Source: Clostridiales bacterium
Lineage (GTDB): Bacteria > Bacillota > Clostridia > Christensenellales > Aristaeellaceae
DNA length: 64,000 nucleotides
Direction of reading: 5' to 3'
Assembly: GCA_015056415.1 (NCBI GenBank)
Contig: SVGJ01000004.1
Location: 1-64,000, forward strand
The position numbers and the translations under genes were made by a program. The notes under the pieces were generated by a model. The model was not told where the DNA came from and made no database searches. It saw only the letters and a program-made list of their open reading frames with translations. Below are positions 63,616 to 63,906 of this stretch, in pieces (the first letter of the stretch is position 1; each line of letters begins with the position of its first letter).

Positions 63616-63906
63616 AAGCGCCATTCGCAAAGACTTTTCTTGCAAATGGCGCTTCAGACTGTCAAAAAGGCTCCGGGTGGCGTCGGAGGGTTCGCAAACC
63701 CTTCGACTGTGATCGTATCGCCCGGCTGTGCCGGGCGGGCGGGGCGTTTCCGGCCTTGCCGGAAACTTTCCTTACGCGCAGGAACGACCGTGTCCGGCGC
63801 CCGCGCCGGACACAGTGACGGAGCGCAAATCTCACAAAAGTGGCTCTGACACTTTTGTGATACGCGAAAGCGCCATTCGCAAAGACTTTTCTTGCAAATG
63901 GCGCTT
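63616..63906. repeat. Intergenic hairpin island (seven hairpins) flanked by a 39-bp directly repeated imperfect palindrome
   Basis: Identical 39-mer aagcgccattcgcaaagacttttcttgcaaatggcgctt at 63616-63654 and 63868-63906; five hairpins between. Confidence 0.92.

Follow-up and report, generated by a model that had tools for sequence, protein, structure and literature searches.

The hairpin-dense island at 63616-63906 of the 64,000-nucleotide stretch of Clostridiales DNA analysed here (hereafter the window) is very probably a non-autonomous, MITE-like passenger of IS1182 elements, approximately 212 bp long, which carries a core of five hairpins and integrates by duplicating a whole terminator hairpin. 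The element measures 212 bp, has no transposase gene, is multicopy, has terminal inverted repeats in common with an autonomous element and shows both target duplication and empty sites. As far as the literature searched shows, this outcome of integration is new, and so is the conserved structured core; the general kind of element is already known.

The island in the window and its empty counterparts

An earlier note on this DNA had described an identical 39-bp palindromic direct repeat and five hairpins, and this description was borne out position by position. The 39-mer has exact copies at 63616-63654 and 63868-63906, two in all (0 expected from 100 shuffles), and the five internal hairpins all lie between them. 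The + strand of the interior of the island has a folding energy of -111.9 kcal/mol, with z = -6.4 relative to 200 dinucleotide shuffles. The duplication was best delimited as 40 bp, including one extra A, at 63615-63654 and 63867-63906, with an uncertainty of 1 bp in the boundary. The insert is consequently 212 bp long and occupies 63655-63866 on the + strand, in the orientation CAGACTGTC..., with dispersed copies in the genome, the genus and the family. The right copy of the duplication starts 4 nt past the stop codon (63911-63913) of a minus-strand DUF436/TIGR01440 gene. The 39-mer is the intrinsic terminator of this right-hand gene, doubled by the insertion, and is located outside the element. 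Two genes from this neighbour, a DNA N6/N4 methyltransferase gene (PF01555) was observed at 61840-63078 on the minus strand. In-frame stops were counted in some of the G013, G006 and G015 orthologues of the 182-aa gene to the left of the island (63056-63604); species may differ in where this gene starts or in whether it is intact.

The window contains one copy of the element, matched at 63660-63867 with 216 bits by R1, a covariance model built from 18 copies. The left terminal inverted repeat CAGACTGTCAAAAA (63655-63668, + strand) is common to recent copies and to the IS1182 element of loci L150 and L305. It is followed on the + strand by hairpin P1 (GTCGGAGGGtt..aaCCCTTCGAC, 63682-63707), which shows covariation and a G.U pair retained in most copies. 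Hairpin P2 with its flanks TCGTATC (63713-63719) and GGGCGGG (63737-63743) covers 63713-63743, and its inner stem covaries. Hairpin P3 lies at 63746-63766; its loop can carry approximately 100 nt of extra sequence in other copies. In the P4 region (63780-63829), CRC/GYG pairing and a purine-rich internal loop surround the hairpin 63790-63813, and helices 5 and 6 covary; P4 is swapped for a different helix in copies of G001, G010 and G016. The terminal hairpin P5 (TCACAAAAGTG..CACTTTTGTGA, 63832-63860) covaries strongly and overlaps the right end of the element. This right end, TTTTGTGATACGCG (63853-63866, minus strand), is, by comparison with recent copies, a decayed form of ...TTTTTGACACGCTG, the right inverted repeat.

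At the orthologous locus, the congener G013 possesses a single hairpin 3' of the DUF436/TIGR01440 gene, without the element. In the window's genome (G000) and in G004 the element lies between two hairpins; in G006 only one side of the element has a hairpin. The two hairpins match within G000 and within G004 but differ between these genomes, as do the core subtypes, which suggests independent insertions into one terminator. The second 39-mer copy is not an assembly artefact, an eventuality raised by the earlier note, since an independent congener, G004, also has the duplication at this locus, in a hairpin variant of its own. The reverse situation was found at a second locus, where the window has one terminator hairpin, AAAAGGGACTTGCGAAAGCAAGTCCCTTTT (49694-49723), and no element, and G006 has a 212-bp element flanked on both sides by a 32-bp copy of the hairpin, AAAAGGGACTTGCTTGTATAAGCAAGTCCCTT. 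Empty relatives with a single hairpin are therefore available for two loci.

The repeated sequence is the interior of the island and not the 39-mer. BLAST located the interior at 7 places in its own genome; beyond it, 16 of the 17 remaining genomes of the genus and one further genus gave matches. Using R1, 10 copies were counted in the window's genome and 7-123 copies per genome in 17 of the 18 genomes of the genus. Within the family, 72 of 151 genomes and 30 of 50 genera gave matches, as did a few genomes from four further families of the same order. The case that the earlier note had named as refuting its reading, a unique element without covariation, fails, as there are many copies and the covariation is strong. 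The named relatives are uncultured Clostridia, mostly ruminant-gut metagenome assemblies; no exact match to the core pattern was found in viral contigs. In G010, at least 10 near-identical 229-nt matches correspond to a recent amplification, each beside its own duplicated hairpin. Contigs often end within the element (C19, C42, C64, C82, C133 and C137 of G010; C49, C57, C65, C127 and C133 of G001), which implies that true copy numbers in the draft genomes exceed the counts.

Structure of the core

The core is composed of five hairpins joined by conserved linkers. In an alignment of 18 sequences, 96.9% of the cells were paired (approximately 45% in slid-alignment controls) and both sides had changed in 24 of 50 pairs, a level reached in 0 of 500 shuffles. 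Family-wide, compensatory changes were seen in 13 of 27 pairs. The covariation analysis called for by the earlier note thus gave a strong signal. Around P2, the segments TCGTATC and GGGCGGG show little or no variation in 22 sequences from six genera, and would pair via three U.G pairs that are constant in 22/22. This deeply conserved core represents an undescribed structured element.

Variation was observed around this framework. The loops of P3 and P5 tolerate insertions, and P2-P3 and P4 occur in alternative subtypes. Approximately 100 nt of extra hairpins occupy the P3 loop in the 297-301 nt copies L069, L070, L115, L117, L118, L104 and L105, and in L044/L007 of the window's genome; in G002 the P3-loop insert is a conserved domain starting with CCCCCTCGGCCATCACACAGCC. 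Judging from these inserts, the core loops appear to be sites of further insertion. A second, unrelated version of P2-P3 (ATCGAAAATCGGCG...CGATTTTCG) with the same hairpin layout is present in L021, L125, L133, L141, L145 and others, as if modules were exchanged between copies. In L022, L033, L034, L341, L135, L139 and L144, P1 is replaced by a different module, mostly ending with GTCGGCAGACTG. A raiA RNA (RF03072, above gathering score) was seen at L344:1-162, near a copy of the element in G061.

We favour the reading of the core as a passenger selected mainly for propagation, the main alternative being a real RNA function. The folded core might aid transposition, stabilise 3' ends or play a separate role as RNA. 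It could be a functional non-coding RNA, either a cis-acting 3' UTR element or an sRNA, that is also mobile, and selection on this RNA would explain the covariation and the linkers. The compensatory changes in 24 of 50 pairs, the excess of pairing over the slid controls and the retention of the P2 flanks with their U.G pairs speak for it. The structured RNA evoked by the earlier note retains some substance: the element may act as one. P1 also shows a preference for G.U over A.C (91 to 11). But the ratio is only 30 to 22 over all other helices, so that the strand signal is suggestive in P1 only and weak outside it. The element is found in either orientation relative to the terminator tail. In Rfam, no match to the element rose above chance level or reached a gathering score, the best score in the window being 27.8 bits of the 50 needed, and copies from other genera had no match. 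On balance, we consider a functional mobile RNA possible but unlikely. It is slightly harder to believe that the G.U-rich core, with TCGTATC/GGGCGGG around P2, is a working family-wide regulatory or protein-binding RNA that was turned into a transposon passenger and was spread to 3' UTRs by hairpin-duplicating IS1182 transposition; if this were true, tens of genes per genome would have gained a shared 3'-end module.

Flanking hairpins and the probable IS1182 partner

In G010, at least 11 copies with mostly equal model scores and lengths are located at unrelated loci, and the hairpin direct repeat that brackets each of them is unique to its locus. A flanking direct repeat scoring at least 15 was found for 62 of 124 copies and for none of approximately 2,400 mismatched pairings, in which the left flank of one copy was paired with the right flank of another copy from the same genome. 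The duplication was seen in 11/11 copies of G010, 11/12 of G001 and 23/28 of G002. It was not clear in half of the sampled copies, including eight of the ten in the window's genome (two keep it), presumably because older copies have lost it by decay. The median duplicated repeat is 27 bp long, the median fold z is -4.7, and at least 7 bp are paired in 89% of the repeats. Measured from the two repeat ends, the outermost base pair is at median distances of 1 and 0 nt, so that repeat length tracks hairpin length. Terminator A/T runs flank the repeat pair on the outside in 41 of 62 cases and are hardly ever seen on the inside. These two features indicate that duplication takes in the whole terminator hairpin and stops at its feet. 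Whole-hairpin duplication also exists in three further genera (L330 and L332-L334 in G074, L338 in G182, L340 in G026). At the level of sequence comparison, these observations show that the element enters the palindrome of an intrinsic terminator, the entire hairpin, of any sequence and approximately 17-40 bp long, being then present on both sides. The 39-mers are ruled out as modules of the element, as the flanking hairpins differ from copy to copy; the earlier view of the 39-mer as part of a composite element has to be abandoned, since it differs at every insertion and is a duplicated target terminator.

The left end CAGNNTGTCAAAAA was searched in three congeners and the places without a core were inspected. 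This led to L150, an autonomous insertion sequence of 1,494 bp that has the ends CAGCCTGTCAAAAAAGG...TTCTTTGACAAGCTG and is located between two copies of the 25-bp perfect palindrome AAACCACCCGTCAAACGGGTGGTTT. Its 479-aa transposase belongs to the IS1182 family (NF033551, 415 bits for a cut-off of 270) and also matches PF13751, PF05598 and PF01609. In another genus, L305 has ends as in L150 and a 20-bp hairpin duplication; in L302 the duplicated hairpin measures 31 bp. Such a duplication was seen at only 3 of 18 scanned IS1182 loci, several of which are cut by contig ends. The terminal inverted repeats of the element are imperfect (CAGNNTGTCAAAAA / TTTTTGACACGCTG), and the CAGNNTGTCAAAAA ends are common to the insertion sequences of L150 and L305. 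Some G002 elements start with CAGACTGTCAAAAAAGGTCG, with 19 of the first 20 bases as in the L150 insertion sequence. An IS1182-type transposase therefore appears to move the element, to judge from the shared ends and the target behaviour. No IS1182 transposase was found in the window's genome or in G010, and it was found in only 3 of 18 congeners, these genomes being incomplete; given this rarity, a sporadic insertion sequence mobilising the element in trans is the likely arrangement.

The element is not an internally deleted IS1182, as the insertion sequences lack the core (no R1 match in L166 or L305) and the ends alone are shared. The apparent core-transposase fusion at L319 turned out to be a separate degenerate IS1182 beside a truncated core. 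At L137:3041-4756 (contig C38 of G002), a 1.7-kb relative carries GNAT acetyltransferase and SAM methyltransferase genes between the halves of the last hairpin and is flanked by a duplicated terminator hairpin, which indicates that the ends of the element are able to move cargo.

Three other origins of the hairpin pairs were considered. Cas1-Cas2 duplicates the whole repeat on spacer insertion. With this precedent, another palindrome-duplicating enzyme could be imagined, for example a Cas1-like integrase that acts as Cas1 does at CRISPR repeats, the resemblance to IS1182 being a coincidence, and the absence of the transposase from most copy-bearing genomes would fit. This is improbable, as intact IS1182 elements of two genera have the same ends and the hairpin duplication, and as hairpin targeting is established for IS1272, a member of the IS1182 family (PMC4923244, PMC5678879). 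The earlier note was right in seeing a composite palindromic, mobilised intergenic element, but its attribution to a BIME moved by a RAYT did not hold. The intergenic location, the palindromes and the high copy number would suit a REP/BIME-type repeat mobilised by a RAYT (an IS200-like HUH transposase); yet the search for Y1_Tnp (PF01797) gave 0 matches in the window's genome, which is 84% complete, and matches in 5 control genomes. RAYTs do not produce long hairpin duplications or inverted-repeat ends, the flanking palindrome changes from site to site, and a matching IS1182 DDE element exists, all of which makes this origin very improbable. Ordinary terminator duplication or gene conversion beside an old repeat, without transposition, might account for a hairpin pair identical within a genome and different between G000 and G004, but it is hardly credible, as insertion is required by the near-identical elements found at 11 unrelated loci, each beside the hairpin of its own locus, and by the single-hairpin empty sites, and the G000 and G004 variants are explained by independent insertions of different core subtypes.

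Proposed integration pathway and known systems

We propose that an IS1182-family DDE transposase binds the ends of the element in trans. On extrusion, the target palindrome would form hairpins whose two 5' feet, or the equivalent staggered positions, would receive the 3' ends of the element, and repair synthesis would then copy the target hairpin. By the insertion the element would come to lie in the 3' UTR of the adjacent gene, and the hairpin copy beside the U-tract could still terminate transcription. As a hairpin copy is kept on each side, the insertion is probably nearly neutral. This would explain how terminators can be saturated without broken termination, the terminator copy on the U-tract side surviving. 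In bacterial transposons the transposase normally dictates target duplications that are short and of fixed length. In the present case the hairpin of the target is itself what is duplicated, however long it is, which implies that the enzyme must read DNA structure. The plentiful recent copies and the empty relatives make the mechanism directly testable.

REP/BIME sequences with RAYT are similarly dispersed intergenic palindromes; the present element differs by the lack of a RAYT, by its ends and by the hairpin duplication. Group IIC introns insert beside terminator hairpins, as does the element, but they are retroelements with a ribozyme and a reverse transcriptase, of which no sign was seen here, and make no target duplication. 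Within the IS1182 family, to which the autonomous partner belongs by its score above the NF033551 cut-off, direct repeats of 0-60 bp are recorded in ISfinder. Some members target palindromes according to Siguier et al., as cited in PMC5678879, and two members have 4-bp duplications (PMC3281130, PMC3196728), in contrast to the whole hairpins described here. No report of a structured IS1182 passenger of this kind was found in the literature searched.

Prokaryotic MITEs are shorter than 500 bp, lack a transposase, have inverted-repeat ends, show direct repeats at young copies, are intergenic and have predicted stem-loop transcripts (PMC10969869). The element shares its size, ends, direct repeats at young copies, intergenic site and predicted stem-loop transcripts with them. 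Its core differs in being G+C-rich, with linkers that are conserved and pairing that covaries across genera; its duplications differ in being terminator hairpins of variable length.

A close likeness is also seen with IS1272/TnSha1 of staphylococci, also of the IS1182 family with a DDE transposase, whose targets are hairpins of varied sequence, many of them transcription terminators (PMC4923244, PMC5678879). In IS1272/TnSha1 the stem-loop is deleted or replaced, without target duplication (PMC4923244), whereas here the complete hairpin is duplicated, with one hairpin at empty sites and one on each side of the element at occupied sites. No earlier report of whole-terminator duplication was found in the literature searched (subscription papers not covered). 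Whole-hairpin duplication was drawn for IS1272 as a possible pathway b, not observed (Fig 13 of PMC5678879). The joining proposed here corresponds to this pathway, and the many natural copies provide evidence for joining at the 5' feet, hitherto only drawn as a possibility.
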